NCBI GenBank assembly: GCA_900114885.1
Contig: FOUN01000014.1
Location: 1-64,000, forward strand
DNA length: 64,000 bases
Source of the DNA: Psychrobacillus psychrodurans
Lineage (GTDB): Bacteria > Bacillota > Bacilli > Bacillales_A > Planococcaceae
Direction of reading: 5' to 3'
A program made the position numbers and the translations under genes. The notes below the pieces were generated by a model that saw only the letters and a list, made by a program, of their open reading frames with translations, was not told where the DNA came from and searched no databases. Shown here one piece after another: positions 1 to 22,768 of this stretch (the stretch's first letter is position 1; each line of letters starts with the position of its first letter).

Positions 1-922
1 TTCTTGGTTTTAGCTGATTTTCTTTTTCCAGCACTTTCGTTATGACCAGGAACTAATCCTGCCCAAGAACACATATGAGCTGCGCTGGGAAATTGCTTTT
101 TCACATCAGTACCAATTTCAGATAAAATTTGTTCCGCCATTCTTGTAGCTATTCCAGGAATAGAATCTAGTCGGTCAATATCATCTTGATGTGTACTTAC
201 TCTTTCAGCTACTTCTTGATCTAACATCTCGATTTGCTCAGTTAAAAAGTCTATATGTTTTAAAATAGTCTTTAACATTAAGCGTTGATGAGAATTAATA
301 TATCCTCTTAGGGCAAGCTCCAGTTCTTCTTTTTTCTTTTTCATAGTACGTCGAGCGAAGTTTGATAGAATTTCAGGATCTTTTTCGCCGTTGGCGATAG
401 CGTTAAGCATATCTCGTGAAGAAACACCCATTACATTTGAAACAACAGAACCAAGTTTGATATTTGCACCCTCTAATACTTTCTGTATGCGATTATGTTG
501 CCTAGCGCGTTCTTCAATAATACTTCGACGGTATCGAACTAGTTCTCGGAGTTCTCGTTGATTTCTGTCGGGAATATAACTAGCTTTTAAAAGCCCATGA
601 CTAAGGAGTTTAGCAATCCATTCTGCGTCCTTCACATCTGTTTTACGTCCTGGGACCGCCTTCATGTGTTGGGCATTCACAACTAGAAACTCAATATCCT
701 CAGCTTCTAATAAGTTCACAATAGGTTTCCAGTAAACACTAGTGCTTTCCATGGCAACATGCGTACAGTTATTCTCTTTAATCCAGTCTACCAACTGTAT
801 TAAAAAAATAGTTTTAGTTGAAAACGTTTTAATCTCCTTTCCTTCTGGTGTGATAATGCAAGCGGTTATATTGTCCTTATGAACATCCATACCACATGCT
901 CTTTCAATGACTACATCCATTG
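1..922 (-). CDS. IS110 family transposase (C-terminus cut by window edge)
   Basis: The reverse strand reads from ATG at 922, behind a good AAAGGA site, to the window edge without a stop. The N-terminal half has the DEDD-type catalytic domain of IS110 transposases: GMDVHKD near the start, then AMESTSVYW and KTDVKDAEW. The later part carries the Transposase_20 region (SIPGIATRMAEQILSEIG, then CSWAGLVPGHNESAGKRKS). About 307 codons are visible, out of the roughly 400 usual for the family, so only the tail is missing. IS110 enzymes act as DEDD-serine transposases guided by a bridge RNA made from the element's own non-coding end. Family assignment is firm; activity cannot be judged from a partial gene. 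Confidence 0.93.
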
Positions 923-1183
923 AAATACATCCTTTCTACGGCTCTAATTATTATTGGAGGCTGGTGCAACAATCAGAATAGGATTAATCTACCATGTGTG
1001 CTTCCCGTAAGGGAGCGACAGTCAGTGGTGCACCGTGGTCGTTGGAGTCAGACTAACGGATGGGCTCTAACGCACCATAGTTCATCGACCTTCCTCTCCC
1101 AGCCGTAGAATCAGTATGGACGGTTTTTCACCATTTTCATTCTCTGTGGTGCAGCGTTTTTTGCTGCATGGGTGGCTAACGGG
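923..1183. other. Non-coding end of the IS110 element (candidate bridge RNA region)
   Basis: This stretch upstream of the transposase start has no credible gene: the short frame inside it has no ribosome site and no recognisable product. It is relatively GC-rich and structured, with local repeats such as TGGTGCA and GTGGTGCA. In IS110 elements the non-coding end upstream of the transposase encodes the bridge RNA, so this is the expected place for one. The exact element boundary is not resolved here. Confidence 0.4.
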
Positions 1184-1218
1184 TGCTTTACTTAAATAAG
1201 GAGTAAAGCATTTTTTTT
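1184..1218 (+). terminator. Intrinsic terminator next to the IS110 end
   Basis: A 9-bp perfect stem (TGCTTTACT at 1184-1192, AGTAAAGCA at 1202-1210) with a 9-nt loop is followed by eight T residues on the plus strand. Confidence 0.65.
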
Positions 1219-1247
1219 ATTGAACTAACGCGGCAGTTTAGTTCAAT
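1219..1247. repeat. Short palindromic repeat TTGAACTAA...TTAGTTCAA
   Basis: A 10-bp inverted repeat with an 8-nt loop. Related half-copies of CTAACGGGTGCTTTA lie at 1176-1190 and 1558-1572, so the element is repeated around this small locus. Confidence 0.55.
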
Positions 1248-1332
1248 AAGAGGATATTATTTGAAGAATGACGAATTTGTCAATATTAGTGTAGTTTTTG
1301 AGTATTTCCTTTTACAAATGAGGGGTGACAAT

Positions 1333-1527
1333 ATGGAATTATTAGTTCAAGCAGGATTTTTTTTAAATCCAATTTTAGCAATAGTATTTTGCTTAAATTT
1401 AGTAGCATTAATCAAAAAAGTTAGTAGTGATAGTAATGCTGGTACCTCTAAAAATACATTTTGGATGACTATTTCAGCTACTTATATCATATTTAGTATA
1501 ACTTGGTTGTTGATGTTTCTATTGTAA
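1333..1527 (+). CDS. Small membrane protein, 64 aa
   Basis: The ATG at 1333 follows GAGGGGTGA at a normal distance. The longer TTG reading from 1261 lacks such a site, so the short form is preferred. The product has two hydrophobic stretches, roughly residues 5-28 and 46-64, separated by a polar Ser/Asn/Lys linker (KKVSSDSNAGTSKN), and so looks like a two-pass membrane peptide. It is followed by a terminator at 1590. I do not recognise a family, and its place next to an IS110 end leaves open that it is cargo. Existence is likely; function unknown. Confidence 0.6.
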   Translation: MELLVQAGFFLNPILAIVFCLNLVALIKKVSSDSNAGTSKNTFWMTISATYIIFSITWLLMFLL

Positions 1528-1589
1528 TTCATTTACAACTCAATCTTTCTTCTTCAACTAACGGGTGCTTTAGTGAAAAAGACAGTAAA

Positions 1590-1621
1590 AAAAAGAGTTT
1601 GGAAATTCCAAGCTCTTTTTT
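1590..1621 (+). terminator. Terminator after the small membrane protein
   Basis: The stem AAAGAGTTTGGAA / TTCCAAGCTCTTT has one mismatch and runs into a T tract. Confidence 0.75.
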
Positions 1622-1760
1622 CTATACAAAAACAACCATTAGCTTTAACATAGCCTTACATTATTTTAAATGCAATCCTTATAGGACAGAACATTTGAAG
1701 TGAGTTAAACAAAGTGACTATTATCGTGAACATAATAATCAAGATATTAAAAAGTGAAAA

Positions 1761-1807
1761 AATGTAAAACTCACAAATGTTTGGTCGACATTTGTGAGTT
1801 TTACATT
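1761..1807 (-). terminator. Perfect 20-bp hairpin terminator of the OLD-family gene
   Basis: Twenty bases at 1761-1780 are perfectly complementary to 1788-1807, with loop TTGGTCG. Read on the minus strand the stem is followed by TTTT, placing it directly after the stop of the ATPase gene. Confidence 0.8.
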
Positions 1808-1826
1808 TAATAAATTCTTAATTCTA

Positions 1827-3731
1827 TTAGATTTCACTGGATACTAATGAGCCAATATTTAGGGAATCTGCTGCTTCTTCACCTATTACAAAGTTAAAAA
1901 ATCTTAATAATCCTTCTTCGTATTGATCAAATCTTTCGCTAATAAGCTTTGTTGCTTTCCATGGCTTATCATTCAACCATTCTTCACCAAATATATCCTC
2001 TTCAAAGTTTGGTGAGTGGTAAAGTCTCCTAGTTTCATCTAAGTTAATTGACTCTAACATTCTTAAATTATTTCCCGAATTATATGGTTCACCATCTAAA
2101 TCATGTATTATTACTGGTTCAATTCCGAAATGAGTTAAAACTTCGCAATACGTTCTTTGAGTAAGTTTTCCTTTGCATGAAATTATATTTATGTCTTTAC
2201 AATAACTTTCAATTTCTTCCTTTATATTTGGATATTTAGAAATAAGAACATCTCTAATAGATTTGAAGCTGGCAATTTCACAGTCTCCCTCAACTAATAT
2301 TACTCTCCTTGAAAAAAATGACTCAAGTGTTGATGAGTTAAAATTTAAAAGCATTCTCATCGCATTGCGCTTATCTATTGCATTATCCCCGTTATAAAGA
2401 TTATCCTCTACTTGAGAAAAAAGTGTAGTGCCAGTTGTAAAATTACGTTTTGCTATTACAATTCCTTGATGACGATCTGCTAAATCAATAAAGTGTTCGG
2501 AGTGTGAGGTACAAATGACTTGCGACAGTTCAGACTCAGAAATTTTCAGTAAAGAGTCTCTCATTTTTCTTTGTAGCTGCGGATGTAAATATATCTCAGG
2601 TTCTTCTACTAAAAATAAAAAGCTTCTTTGCCATGATTCTTCTACTTCCTCTACAGTTACATCTAGTTCTTGTGACATCAATTCCAATAATGACAATATT
2701 AATAGCCTCTGTGCACCACTACCCTGATGGTCGGTTGTAGTTTCTACATCATTGTAAATTAATGAAAACGTAGTGTTCTCATGAAGTTTTTCAATGACAG
2801 GGGGGCTAAAGTTGACCCTCGCTTCAATATCCATTAACCTTTTTAACTTGAGGTTTAGGGATGTCTCTAAAGAACTTAGAGACTCATGACGATCTTCTCC
2901 AACGAATGCATTTGTTAAATTAGTTGCTGCCGTTTCAAATTCTACAAATTTTTGTGAAGTTCGCATTTTCTTTTCTATTAACGATGACATAATGTTTTTG
3001 GCTGCAGAGTTAGCTTTTGCAGGATTAGTTTCATCCTGTAATAACTTCATGGCAGGTATGTAAATTACTTTAGGCATTATTGATCTAAGCACGCTACTAA
3101 GTCCGTTAGGGTTTGCCATCCATTCGGGATCTCGATGCTGAACTAATGCTGAATTCTCCTCTAAAACGTATTGTAAAAAGGCCTCTTTTTTAGGCGCAGG
3201 AATTGTCCCAGTTAATCCTTGTTGAGCACAAAATCTTTGGTGTAGGTCTTGAAGTTCGGATGAAGAGTCTCGAAATGCAGCATTATTCCAAGTTGTACTA
3301 CCTTCCAATTCATGAATATATGCTTGTTGAATATAAGCATAATAAGGAACATCCTTATCATTTAAGTTAGAAGAATTCCAAATTCTTTTAATCTTTAGTT
3401 CATCATTAAAAATGTATCTACTAATCTCTTTTTTACTTAAATCTTGGTCTGTGAATTTATGGAATGTTACACGTATTTCCATATGTTCAGCTTCATTGAG
3501 TGGGTTCGGTTCAACTTTTTTAGGAAATCGGTCTATATCAGGGCAATGCGGTTTTTCATAAGGGAAAAACATTCTTAATGCTTCTAAAACAGTTGATTTC
3601 CCTACATTATTTTCTCCAATTATTGTTAGCATATCTGAATTTCCATCAGATTTATTTGGAAACTTGATGGTACACAATTCATCTATGCCGATATTCTTAT
3701 AATTTTTGATAACAAATTCTTTTATTCTCAT
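1827..3731 (-). CDS. OLD-family ATP-dependent nuclease (AAA ATPase + TOPRIM)
   Basis: A 634-aa protein with an ABC/SMC-like ATPase and a C-terminal TOPRIM domain, the layout of OLD (overcoming lysogenisation defect) nucleases. Visible motifs are Walker A GENNVGKS (residues 39-46), a signature-like GSGAQR, Walker B FLFLVEEPEIYLHP, an H-loop TSHSEHF, then TOPRIM acidic motifs VILVEGDCE and IIHDLDGE. ATG at 3731 follows an AAGGGGGG-like site. OLD proteins are ATP-controlled DNA nucleases, and several act in phage defence (GajA of Gabija, PARIS, retron Eco8). No UvrD-like GajB lies next to it, so it is not a complete Gabija system. The divergent neighbour is a restriction-enzyme remnant, consistent with a decayed defence locus. 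Confidence 0.88.
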   Translation of the reverse strand: MRIKEFVIKNYKNIGIDELCTIKFPNKSDGNSDMLTIIGENNVGKSTVLEALRMFFPYEKPHCPDIDRFPKKVEPNPLNEAEHMEIRVTFHKFTDQDLSKKEISRYIFNDELKIKRIWNSSNLNDKDVPYYAYIQQAYIHELEGSTTWNNAAFRDSSSELQDLHQRFCAQQGLTGTIPAPKKEAFLQYVLEENSALVQHRDPEWMANPNGLSSVLRSIMPKVIYIPAMKLLQDETNPAKANSAAKNIMSSLIEKKMRTSQKFVEFETAATNLTNAFVGEDRHESLSSLETSLNLKLKRLMDIEARVNFSPPVIEKLHENTTFSLIYNDVETTTDHQGSGAQRLLILSLLELMSQELDVTVEEVEESWQRSFLFLVEEPEIYLHPQLQRKMRDSLLKISESELSQVICTSHSEHFIDLADRHQGIVIAKRNFTTGTTLFSQVEDNLYNGDNAIDKRNAMRMLLNFNSSTLESFFSRRVILVEGDCEIASFKSIRDVLISKYPNIKEEIESYCKDINIISCKGKLTQRTYCEVLTHFGIEPVIIHDLDGEPYNSGNNLRMLESINLDETRRLYHSPNFEEDIFGEEWLNDKPWKATKLISERFDQYEEGLLRFFNFVIGEEAADSLNIGSLVSSEI

Positions 3732-3766
3732 AAAAATCCCCCCTTTTAGTAATATATTACATTAAA

Positions 3767-4099
3767 TTGGAAATAAAGATATATAAATTAGAAATTTCTG
3801 ATAAAAGTTTCTATTTACTTCATGCATTTTTGGACCATCCAGACATAATTGACGGAAGTAATTATTCTCCAGACTTTATGTACCTAGTGAATGATAGTGA
3901 AAATAATACTGAGTTACATTTGGTTGAGAGTAAAGGTATTAAACAATCTAATTTATTAAGGGAAATTGAAAGTGACAAAATAACCGCTGCTGAAAAAGTG
4001 TACAATCTTTTTGAGTGTGAAGGTATTAAGGTTAAATATGTTAAACAACTGGATAAAGACTCTATAACCAAAATTGTGAAATCTCTTATAAATAACTGA
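3767..4099 (+). pseudogene. Remnant of a type III restriction endonuclease subunit (C-terminal nuclease part)
   Basis: An open frame of about 110 codons whose only start is a TTG at 3767 with no Shine-Dalgarno site, squeezed 36 bp from the divergent ATPase start. The translation contains YSPDFMYLV and LHLVESKG, that is a PD...ExK pattern as found in the C-terminal PD-(D/E)XK nuclease end of type III Res subunits. Helicase motifs, which would make up most of such a protein, are absent, so this is a 3' fragment. A terminator follows the stop. The family call is from motif pattern only; it could instead be a small free-standing nuclease with a poor start. Confidence 0.55.
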
Positions 4100-4104
4100 A
4101 ATTA

Positions 4105-4140
4105 GACCTCCCGATATGACAATATTGGGAGGTCATTTTT
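4105..4140 (+). terminator. Terminator after the restriction remnant
   Basis: GACCTCCCGATAT pairs with ATATTGGGAGGTC (one G-T pair) and is followed by ATTTTTT. Confidence 0.8.
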
Positions 4141-4217
4141 TGCTATGTTAAAGGAAAGGTTGATTTGTCGTAAAATAATATAGTGACACCTACCTTATAC
4201 CAGATTAAATTAGTGTT

Positions 4218-4397
4218 GTTTCCAACTTTATTTACATTACTTTATTTTCCATTAGTTTATTTTTGCTTGTTCGTTTCCAACTTTATTTTAATTTATGCAA
4301 AATTTAATAGCACTTGAACCCGCAATTTATATGGAATTGCGTTTCCAACTTTATTTGTCCTATACATTAATTTGTATAGAACAAATAAAGTTGGAAA
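4218..4397. repeat. Cluster of 16-bp repeats GTTTCCAACTTTATTT ending in a 25-bp inverted repeat
   Basis: Identical 16-mers sit at 4218-4233, 4273-4288 and 4341-4356 on the plus strand. An inverted copy lies at 4383-4397. The last direct copy and the inverted copy form the ends of a 25-bp hairpin (4342-4366 with 4373-4397, one mismatch, 6-nt loop). No gene lies in the 490-bp gap that holds them. Spaced transposase-binding sites of this kind occur at the ends of Tn7-like and Tn552-like elements. That origin is an inference. Confidence 0.75.
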
Positions 4398-4474
4398 TGA
4401 GATTAAAAATAAAAAGATTTGGCGTAATTATGAAGTATATAACAGAAAGACGACAAACTTTAATAATATAATTT

Positions 4475-4507
4475 AACCCCAGGGAGAGTTATCCCTAGGG
4501 TTTTTTT
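4475..4507 (-). terminator. Hairpin between the repeat cluster and the amine oxidase gene
   Basis: AACCCCAGGGA and TCCCTAGGGTT form a stem followed by seven T on the plus strand. On the minus strand it lies downstream of the amine oxidase stop, but the T run favours plus-strand termination, so orientation is uncertain. Confidence 0.5.
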
Positions 4508-4632
4508 ATTGCGTAAATAACTGCATCAATGAAACAGGAGGAGCGCTTTTGTTTTCCTGCCTTACTCAATTATCTATATCCCTTATTAGTAAACAAACGA
4601 GGTTTCGCAATGACACAAATTAAGTGATTCTC

Positions 4633-6099
4633 TCAAGATAAATTATTGACTTCGAAAGCTACACGTATCCCAGATTCAATTGCACCCTGTATCCAACCGT
4701 GTGGGAGTGTAGTGTGTGCACCTGCAAAGTGAACACGACCCTCTGGTGTGGAAAGGTATGGAAAAAGTTCTGTTTCCTGTTCTGGCTTGAACATAGTGAA
4801 TGCTCCACCTGAAAATGGATTTTGCCCCCAACTATAGGATGCTCCCGTAATAAATTCATCATAAACTTGTCGACCATGGATGGTAGCCAAGTTCTGTAAG
4901 GCCTGCTGAATTCGTTTCTCTTCACTCAAACTTTCCCATGGGAGTGAATCATCTTCCCAAGTATAGCTAGCTAAAATTACTCCAGTCTCGTTTTTATCGA
5001 TATCATGGCTAGGATAATAACTAAATCGAATGGGCAAATCAGTTGCGGTTTGCCCACCTTGGATTCCTTGTTTCTCCCAAAATTTACTTTTAAACTGAAG
5101 ACCTATTTTTGTGGAAGTGGAATAATGGAGTTCACGAATAGCTTTCCACTTATTATGCGAGAATGAATTATGGGGGATAACTTCAACAAATTGCAGAATC
5201 GAGAATGGAATGGTCAATATGGCTATATCGCACGTTGTTTCGAATGATTGTTTCGATTCTGTATGCTCCGAATATATAGTGACTTGGTTTTGGTGCTGAA
5301 TAATTTTGGTCATCTGTTGATTAAAAATGATATTTCCCTCTAATTGTGGCAGAAATGAATTTGGGAGTTGATCGTTGCCTCCGGTAATTTCATAATACCG
5401 AGTAATTGGGTTTAAAAGAATTATAAACTCACGTAATATATCTAGAAATGCGAGCTCTGCTAAGCCCTCAATAGAAAGAAGTACCTTAATCATTTCGATG
5501 GCACCAGGCGATAAAGTCACGCCATTAGGGTTATATCTTAGAAATGCATCCATTGAATATTTATCATATTCCTTTATGACCCATTTCCAATTTTCCGTTG
5601 GATCTATATTGATAAAATCAATCACTGGTTGAATGACTGATTGTATCAACTCCAAAGCTGTTTTGCCTTTTTCATTAGGTGCGACAGGGTAGTCTAGTAT
5701 ATCTGGGTTTTGTTCATACAAGTATTGGCGTGTTATAATTCCGTTCACGTAAATCAAGTCGTTAGGTGTACTGTTTATAAATGGATTTATTGGTAAATTG
5801 AATTTTTTTATGTACGCTAACGTTAAATTGTGAGTCGATGGAATGCGCATCGCCCCAGCTTCCATATATTGATCGTTAATAAAAGGGAAGCGTTTCGTGT
5901 ATATTCGTCCCCCCACTCTTTCAGAAGCTTCAATTATGGTGACACTATGTCCGGCTTCCTCTAATAGCGAGGCAGCAACTAACCCTGACATACCTGCGCC
6001 GATAATAAGTATTCTCTTTGAGTTTTGTTTTTTACTTAATCCGTGGTGAATCATTGAAACCATTTGGTCGGGGGTTACATGAGAAAACATGGGTGTCAT
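4633..6099 (-). CDS. Flavin monoamine oxidase / L-amino-acid oxidase-like protein
   Basis: A 488-aa FAD-dependent amine oxidase. The N-terminal dinucleotide-binding fold is clear: [22 protein letters not shown] (GxGxxG near residue 34), then [14 protein letters not shown], the FAD-contact motif of the monoamine oxidase/LAAO family. The C-terminus has [11 protein letters not shown] and [14 protein letters not shown], the second flavin-binding segment. No signal peptide is seen, so it is probably cytosolic. It would oxidatively deaminate an amine or L-amino acid, giving an imine, then ammonia and hydrogen peroxide; the substrate cannot be read from sequence. ATG at 6099 lies behind AAAGGTGAAAG. 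It is a monocistronic unit, divergent from the zinc-efflux operon. Confidence 0.9.
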
Positions 6100-10562: not shown

Positions 10563-10834
10563 CAAAAAAAGCCACGTCTCTATCTTTTACGATAGGGACG
10601 TGGCTGTTCACGCGGTACCACCCTAATTGGAAACAAGTCTATGTTTCCCACTTGGTAAAATAACGGTTTAATCCGTTTTTATACTATGTTCTTTAAAATA
10701 TAGTATAAAAAAAGCTCCAAGAATGAAATTCACCTAATCTTTGTATCAGTTTTCACCAACCACTGATTCTCTTCTAACAGGGAGACCGGCTTAATAATGT
10801 TCTTTTCTTCGCTTGTTTAATATAAATAATATTA
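10563..10834 (-). promoter_or_regulatory. T-box leader controlling the NSS transporter
   Basis: Read on the minus strand, the leader has a long stem I, the conserved TGGAGC after the specifier region, the T-box TAGGGTGGTACCGCG (plus-strand positions 10611-10625), and a strong terminator (GCCACGTC...GACGTGGC, 10571-10604) followed by seven T. In T-boxes the specifier lies a few bases before the GGAGC. Here GAATTTCATTCTTGGAGC offers UUC followed by A, hence a phenylalanine codon by analogy with the glyQS layout. Uncharged tRNA would stabilise the antiterminator. T-box identity is secure; specificity is tentative. Confidence 0.92.
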
Positions 10835-10840
10835 AACGAA

Positions 10841-10869
10841 ATTATAGTATGATAACACCAATAGGTCAA
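10841..10869 (-). promoter_or_regulatory. Promoter of the T-box/NSS unit
   Basis: On the minus strand TTGACC, a 17-bp spacer and TATAAT stand just ahead of the T-box leader. Confidence 0.8.
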
Positions 10870-11046
10870 CCTTTTATTTAGTAGTAAACTCTTTGCCAAC
10901 GGATTATTACTCGGCAATCGCTTCGTACCACTACATTCAGAGTCACTTTCCAAGTTTCTAAGCTTTTCTGAAAAAAATTTAGAAATGTATCTTAACTAAG
11001 GATCACGTCCAGAAATTTTCATTTGCAACATTGAACGAAAAGCTTG

Positions 11047-22450: not shown

Positions 22451-22568
22451 CCTATATTATTGATTTTAACTTATGTCTAATCCTGATTCTCTACTATTAA
22501 AGCCTCTAAAATATTTGTTTACAAGACTAAGAGTTGGGAGTATTATTACTTTCAGTTTCATATTTCAA

Positions 22569-22768
22569 AATCGCTTAATCCATCTGGAACGGGGGAACCA
22601 TTATTCGTGGCTACTTAAGCCGCGTGGGGTGAATCCTACGATTGTAGGGGGGGCTACTCTTTGCCCTAATCCGACAGCTAACTCCGTAAGCGTTGTGAGA
22701 GAGGAATTGGAGCTAGTGAGAATGATTCTATGCCCACTAGGCTATTACCTATGCCTTGTGGGTTTTTT
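22569..22768 (+). promoter_or_regulatory. c-di-AMP (ydaO/yuaA-type) riboswitch with terminator upstream of ktrB
   Basis: The aptamer consensus is plain: TCGCTTAA opening P1, GGAACGGGGGAACCA, GGGGTGAATCC, then CTAATCCGACAGCTAACTCCGTAAGCG closing P1. An intrinsic terminator follows at 22732-22768 (CCCACTAGGC / GCCTTGTGGG, then six T). Binding of c-di-AMP would favour the terminator and lower expression of the downstream potassium transporter, as known for ydaO-class switches before ktr genes. The aptamer spans about 22569-22696. Confidence 0.95.

Follow-up and report, generated by a model that had tools for sequence, protein, structure and literature searches.

A probable Tn7-like left end near glmS in Psychrobacillus psychrodurans, facing what may be the relic of an older insertion

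A 64,000-nucleotide stretch of Psychrobacillus psychrodurans DNA (hereinafter the window, which starts at base 1 of contig C19) carries close to its left edge a set of near-identical 16-bp motifs that ends in a long inverted repeat next to a remnant of a restriction enzyme. What does this array belong to, and what does it separate?

The repeat array and its counterpart beside glmS

A sequence-only reading had described the motif as being present three times in direct and once in inverted orientation, in a gene-free gap between the restriction remnant and a normal operon. The copies are as described: GTTTCCAACTTTATTT recurs exactly on the + strand at 4218-4233, 4273-4288 and 4341-4356 (55 and 68 bp from start to start), and the inverted copy on the − strand at 4383-4398 agrees at 15 of 16 positions, with a single mismatch. 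The layout of the gap also holds, save that its remnant side lies inside a transposon (see below). When the 533-bp gap (4100-4632) was subjected to 200 dinucleotide shuffles and searched on both strands with at most one mismatch, the commonest 16-mer had one copy in 195 shuffles and two in the other five, as against four in the real gap. Across the whole window at up to three mismatches there are six matches to the motif against an expected mean of 2.5, and 4 of 100 shuffles reach six. Thus, the unusual aspect of the array is its clustering and exactness, the window-wide count being less striking. The inverted repeat pairs 24 of 25 bp between 4342-4366 and 4373-4397 around a 6-nt loop; the region 4335-4405 folded as DNA yields −20.4 kcal/mol (z −10.2), a stability equaled by none of 200 shuffles.

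In its own genome the 16-mer TTTCCAACTTTATTTG has 18 matches with up to two mismatches. Those with zero or one mismatch are found in the window array or at 10870 and 10910 of contig C42, and nowhere else in the genome, while two-mismatch copies occur on the same contig at 10850 and 10890. The remaining nine, all with two mismatches, are at the chance level, with a backwards control pattern likewise giving nine. The C42 copies make up a right (R) end of four sites with a 20-bp period (C42:10850-10934), whose terminus lies 23 bp beyond the glmS stop, in the position of attTn7. Searching the genome and its relatives for such arrays at element ends, a check proposed along with the sequence-only reading, thus recovered this R end as well as the same terminus in 3 of the 19 genomes of the genus. 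From sequence alone, spaced repeats with a hairpin may pass for regulator-binding sites, or for a strong terminator, between ordinary genes with no transposon involved. We regard this as highly improbable: ATGAGATTA follows the hairpin on the + strand, with no T run, the homology with other left (L) ends breaks off at 4366, and the sole other cluster of the 16-mer in the genome is the R end by tnsA and glmS. Both the regulator-site and the plain-terminator readings are rejected on the last count, the R end being built from the same site.

Accordingly, we posit that 4218..4366 is very probably the L end of a glmS-adjacent Tn7-like transposon, facing a relic of an older R end. The features on the element side and at its edge are:

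3..920, − strand: IS110-family transposase inside the element, cut by the contig edge
1827..3731, − strand: OLD-family AAA ATPase/TOPRIM protein of 634 aa, cargo (Pfam AAA_15 and OLD-like_TOPRIM; PADLOC Old, 6.9e-64)
3767..4099, + strand: C-terminal remnant of a type III restriction enzyme, 110 aa, cargo (domain and defense profile matches)
4218..4366, no strand: probable L end with three spaced putative TnsB-type sites and the terminus (site matches; homology to other L ends)
4359-4366: L terminus CCTATACA (TGTATAGG on the − strand)
4367..4371, no strand: target-site duplication TTAAT, read from the sequence, with its R-end counterpart at C42 10935-10939 as ATTAA

The window L end is 87% identical over 153 bp, stopping at 4366, to the L ends of the genomes G005 (taken as Psychrobacillus lasiicapitis NEAU-3TGS17) and G009 (taken as Bacillus sp. 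FJAT-22090 strain DE0292). A terminal repeat, TGTATAGRACAAATAAAGTTGGAAA, is common to the L end in the window and the R end on C42. The target-site duplication, suggested as a further check, is found beside both ends: the ATTAA on the glmS-ward side of the R terminus is TTAAT on the other strand, so that the 5-bp duplication expected of a Tn7-like transposon flanks each side, across two contigs. The shared terminal repeat and TTAAT at both ends place window positions 1-4366 inside the element, with the defense genes as its cargo, making 4366 the transposon boundary between mobile defense cargo (window 1-4366) and chromosome. The earlier view that the element itself is gone or lies outside the window therefore stands in part: its R part and the tns genes are outside, on C42, but it is not gone, its L part occupying window 1-4366. 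The OLD-family gene also matches the PADLOC profiles AriA (2.9e-37) and GajA (2e-26), and window 1656-3805, which includes it, is 92% identical to DNA on a G005 contig that bears an R end and tnsB. A terminator-like hairpin (4105-4134) lies by the restriction remnant.

The tns genes and the type of element

Outward from glmS, C42 codes in order for TnsA, TnsB, TnsC, a 616-aa TnsD and a 537-aa TniQ/TnsD-like protein, with the genes for TnsA, TnsB, TnsC and TniQ/TnsD thus lying together at one end. TnsA, TnsC (AAA_22, TniB), TnsD and TniQ are above the Pfam cut-offs, TnsB is under its only one (Mu-transpos_C, 20.1 versus 21.7 bits), and the tns proteins are named by no NCBIfam model. The best matches among solved chains are Tn7 proteins, namely for TnsB (2.2e-95), TnsC (4.3e-72) and TnsD (4.8e-25); for TnsB, Tn7 TnsB scores 324 bits and the runner-up 58 bits. 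Repeated putative TnsB-type sites at both ends, spaced in L and overlapping in R, lie within TGT...ACA termini and would be bound by TnsB. We infer that C42 and C19 hold the two halves of a single element. Their placement on separate contigs with the middle missing counts against this: the DNA shared by the start of C42 and the window is a 35-bp dispersed repeat only, and the middle of the element is unassembled. A TnsE domain (PF18623) had no match in the genome, the control genomes being equally without a match and part of the element being unassembled.

The sequence-only reading had allowed for transposase-binding ends of either Tn7-like or Tn552-like elements. Repeated transposase sites are also present in Tn552/Tn5053-type elements, as is generally known, and the Pfam TniB model is matched by TnsC too. 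That type is defined by a TniA-type transposase and has no TnsA. Here, a TnsA nuclease and the 616-aa TnsD are present and the best solved match of TnsB is, by the above margin in bits, that of Tn7, so that a Tn552/Tn5053-type identity is disfavored and has in our estimate very little chance of being correct; the type is set apart here by a generally known feature, with no Tn552 or TniA protein in the comparison. The Tn7-like alternative is what stood, with the tns genes, three spaced and four overlapping sites, 5-bp duplication and place at glmS all fitting it.

The element itself is of a known kind. In the parts of the sources drawn on here, TnsD of Tn7 binds the 3′ end of glmS and recruits TnsC, TnsAB insert about 20 bp beyond the stop, and target immunity makes another insertion close by less likely (PMC2918618, PMC11406308), while the left end of Tn7 has three sites and its right end four that overlap (PMC8649781, PMC11406308). 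As far as these accounts go, our element resembles Tn7 and glmS-targeting Tn7-like elements in having TnsA, TnsB, TnsC and TnsD with three spaced L and four close R sites (PMC8649781; Peters review, PMC11406308), Tn7 in its 5-bp duplication about 20 bp past the glmS stop with the R end glmS-ward (PMC2918618), and Tn7-like transposons in its OLD and restriction cargo (PMC8649781), OLD nucleases being described as common Tn7 cargo in the portion used of Benler et al. 2021 (PMC8649781). Unlike Tn7, it has a second TniQ/TnsD-type protein after TnsD. Such adjacent tniQ/tnsD genes recall the tandem tniQ-tnsD elements, which are common, the relevant part of Faure et al. 2023 (PMC10293859) giving 1,048 loci, whereas we noticed no CRISPR-Cas genes in the assembled sequence here. 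A further difference from Tn7 is the lack of a recognized TnsE, which the review excerpt calls nearly universal in glmS-targeting Tn7-like elements (PMC11406308), with the qualifications that the controls are also empty and the middle of the element is unassembled. BCEGI-1 of Bacillus cereus ATCC 10987 is depicted, in the section consulted, as one island behind glmS with two Tn7 gene sets (PMC2359905); it is similar in having Tn7-type insertions directly behind glmS and different in that we find one intact-looking element plus a stump, with end sites and duplications resolved. In a limited literature search, no title or abstract among the matches listed concerned right-end relics at glmS, which does not imply their absence from print, and no paper on Psychrobacillus and Tn7 was found. 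The part that we did not see described among those matches is the repeated occurrence of R-end relics with terminators.

The facing terminus and the order of insertions

Just outside the element are two further features:

4373..4398, + strand: R-type terminus with a single site, probably a relic of an older insertion; 25/25 identical to the C42 R terminus
4399..4549, no strand: rest of the putative relic region with a terminator-like hairpin at 4475-4502 (hairpin search; chromosome similarity from 4550)

The idea that two ends meet head to head was well founded: TGTATAGAACAAATAAAGTTGGAAA begins 1 bp beyond TTAAT, matches the R terminus at 25 of 25 positions and is one base off the L terminus, so that the L end looks onto a one-site R-type terminus. 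We read the 25-bp hairpin as an L end opposite an old R end; arising from these facing termini, it needs no function of its own. The second hairpin lies 77 bp beyond the terminus and has an 11-pair stem listed on the − strand; on the + strand the same place has a shorter stem (4481-4496) with a T run after it. From 4550 onward the window is similar to the chromosome of G014; in that genome, on a single contig, the counterpart of the window's amine-oxidase gene (4633-6099; 97% aa identity) lies about 37 kb beyond glmS, a gene order that fits with the part of the window beyond the L end being the flank away from glmS. No relative of the relic interior (4399-4549) was found in 250 family genomes, 20 of which gave matches, almost always confined to the terminus or to short segments, or among the glmS loci collected from other genomes. 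Beyond base 26 the facing terminus likewise matches neither the present R end nor those 250 genomes, and because the interior matches nothing found, it is 25-26 bp that identify the relic. Were the present element absent, this terminus would sit 24 bp beyond glmS; the R-terminus distances counted by eye are 22 bp in G005, 23 in G000, 23 for the farther element of G009 and 25 in G014.

The facing terminus thus looks like what an earlier insertion would have left behind. Its 25-bp identity to the present R terminus, as for a recent copy, could alternatively mean that the present element produced it, for instance as the stump of a tandem second copy from the same or a later transposition. This is unlikely in our view, since nothing is shared with the present R end after base 26, where the latter has three more sites, and related genomes speak for successive insertions. 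The duplication in G005 is TATGC and, compared by eye, the two 5-bp flanks agree in 10 of 11 R-L pairs across the genus, the exception being the first pair of G015 (TCACC versus CACC). G009 has two tandem elements, of which the nearer to glmS is flanked on both sides by AGTTG, the second AGTTG overlapping by two bases the start of the R terminus of the farther element. Once the nearer element is discounted, the farther one has AAAGT on both sides; this restored pair and the overlap indicate that the nearer element came second.

R ends of other families are also frequent on the outer flanks of L ends in other genomes. We examined 12 L ends from 10 genomes (two each in G009 and G015), scoring their outer flanks against ten R ends with the own genome excluded and using 165 AT-rich 60-mers as controls (95th percentile 12, maximum 18). 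R-end resemblance exceeded the 95th percentile in 11 of the 12 flanks and every control in nine, the low scores being those of G010 (17), G014 (13) and G016 (8, no better than controls). The window's own flank scores 26, owing to the A-type terminus it shares with G005, and the nearer element of G009 adjoins an intact element rather than a relic. By eye, the G016 flank has a terminator and the first tnsA codons of an R-end family known in a second genus, and that of G014 is like the glmS flank L156 of the second genus; both reassignments are post hoc, made with the data already seen. The L-end search used stretches from 13 genomes, leaving out G011 and G018. Family-specific sites yielded no accepted L end in G001, G002, G004, G006, G007, G013 and G017, where the stretches are partial (1.5 kb in G004), and these seven and the two left out do not figure among the 12 flanks.

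By analogy with Tn7, TnsD would read the 3′ end of glmS, with TnsC bridging to TnsAB, and the element would enter with its R end toward glmS, producing the 5-bp duplication TTAAT. In the order of events that we infer, an earlier element that ended in identical sequence would have inserted 1 bp more distally to glmS, and decay would have stripped it down to the outermost site of its R end, perhaps with a terminator. The element seen today would then have landed between glmS and this relic, bringing its L terminus opposite the old R terminus across 6 bp. A one-site relic, we surmise, gives little target immunity.

glmS flanks of relatives and other features of the window

Three or more copies spaced about 20 bp apart form arrays in 13 of 19 Psychrobacillus glmS flanks, as against 1 of 190 shuffles, and in 15 of 30 from a second genus in the same family (31 genomes, the 31st being without the locus), as against 2 of 300. 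In a crude search without a control, 18 of the 19 Psychrobacillus flanks yielded a hairpin plus T run inside 400 nt. Eight Psychrobacillus genomes (G002, G004, G006, G007, G011, G012, G015 and G017) have no TnsB match and no TnsD above the cut-off; all eight flanks exceed the 95th percentile of R-end likeness and six exceed every control, the weaker being G006 (16) and G011 (13). Such arrays in element-free strains had been named as evidence against transposon ends: R-end arrays do persist behind glmS where tns genes are lacking, but we read these as element relics. In G004 and by G012 and G015 there are one-site stubs that, by eye, suggest a collapse from four sites with the family terminator retained. 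In the second genus, L154 and L163 look plain, and about six other flanks (e.g., L148 and L151) belong to no assigned family, these being the ones that fit poorly.

That transposon right ends have repeatedly replaced the 3′ flank of glmS is partly shown by these data. As a tentative generalization, for which we would claim somewhat less than an even chance, the flank may be a stratigraphic stack, in which successive Tn7-like elements enter between glmS and the R-end relic of their predecessor and decay to an R-end stub, often from four sites to one with the transposon-borne terminator kept. The terminator of an essential gene would thereby be replaced repeatedly, and one-site stubs would no longer block re-entry of the same family. 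Tn7-type elements seem to have occupied the glmS flanks of the genus in succession, in an order that the duplications let one establish; from such a record one could test whether a collapsed site array entails loss of immunity and whether a need of glmS for a terminator explains why R-end terminators are retained.

Several observations stand beside this. In L139 (G012, about 99-2400 from glmS) and L140 (G015, about 171-2010), both from genomes with no TnsB or TnsD match, R and L ends of one family lie approximately 2.3 and 1.9 kb apart, respectively; these are candidates for Tn7-like elements behind glmS that are either miniature or gutted. In L150 (G194), R-type termini of two families are found in tandem about 340-430 nt beyond the glmS stop, TGTTGATTGACAACAAAGTCGG... 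and then TGTACAGAACAAATAAAGTTGG..., apparently another stack of relics.

The window also has copies of an approximately 80-90-bp repeat comprising CTAACGGGTGCTTTA and, about 47 bp further, the palindromic AACTAACGCGGCAGTTTAGTT. It is found at window 1176-1255 and 1558, at C42:646-666 and on contigs C13, C17, C24, C27, C34, C36, C37, C38 and C41, with 35 matches at up to one mismatch and 61 at up to three (backwards controls, 2 and 0). Its copies are mainly in one orientation per contig and lie between short ORFs, like cassette recombination sites; no integron integrase was above the TIGR02249 cut-off. An IS110-like end is situated at the identical point of the repeat in 6 of 16 printed units, and IS1111-type elements insert likewise at integron attC sites. 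Elsewhere in the window, a T-box leader (10591-10818, − strand) and a c-di-AMP riboswitch (22562-22708, + strand) are above their Rfam gathering scores.
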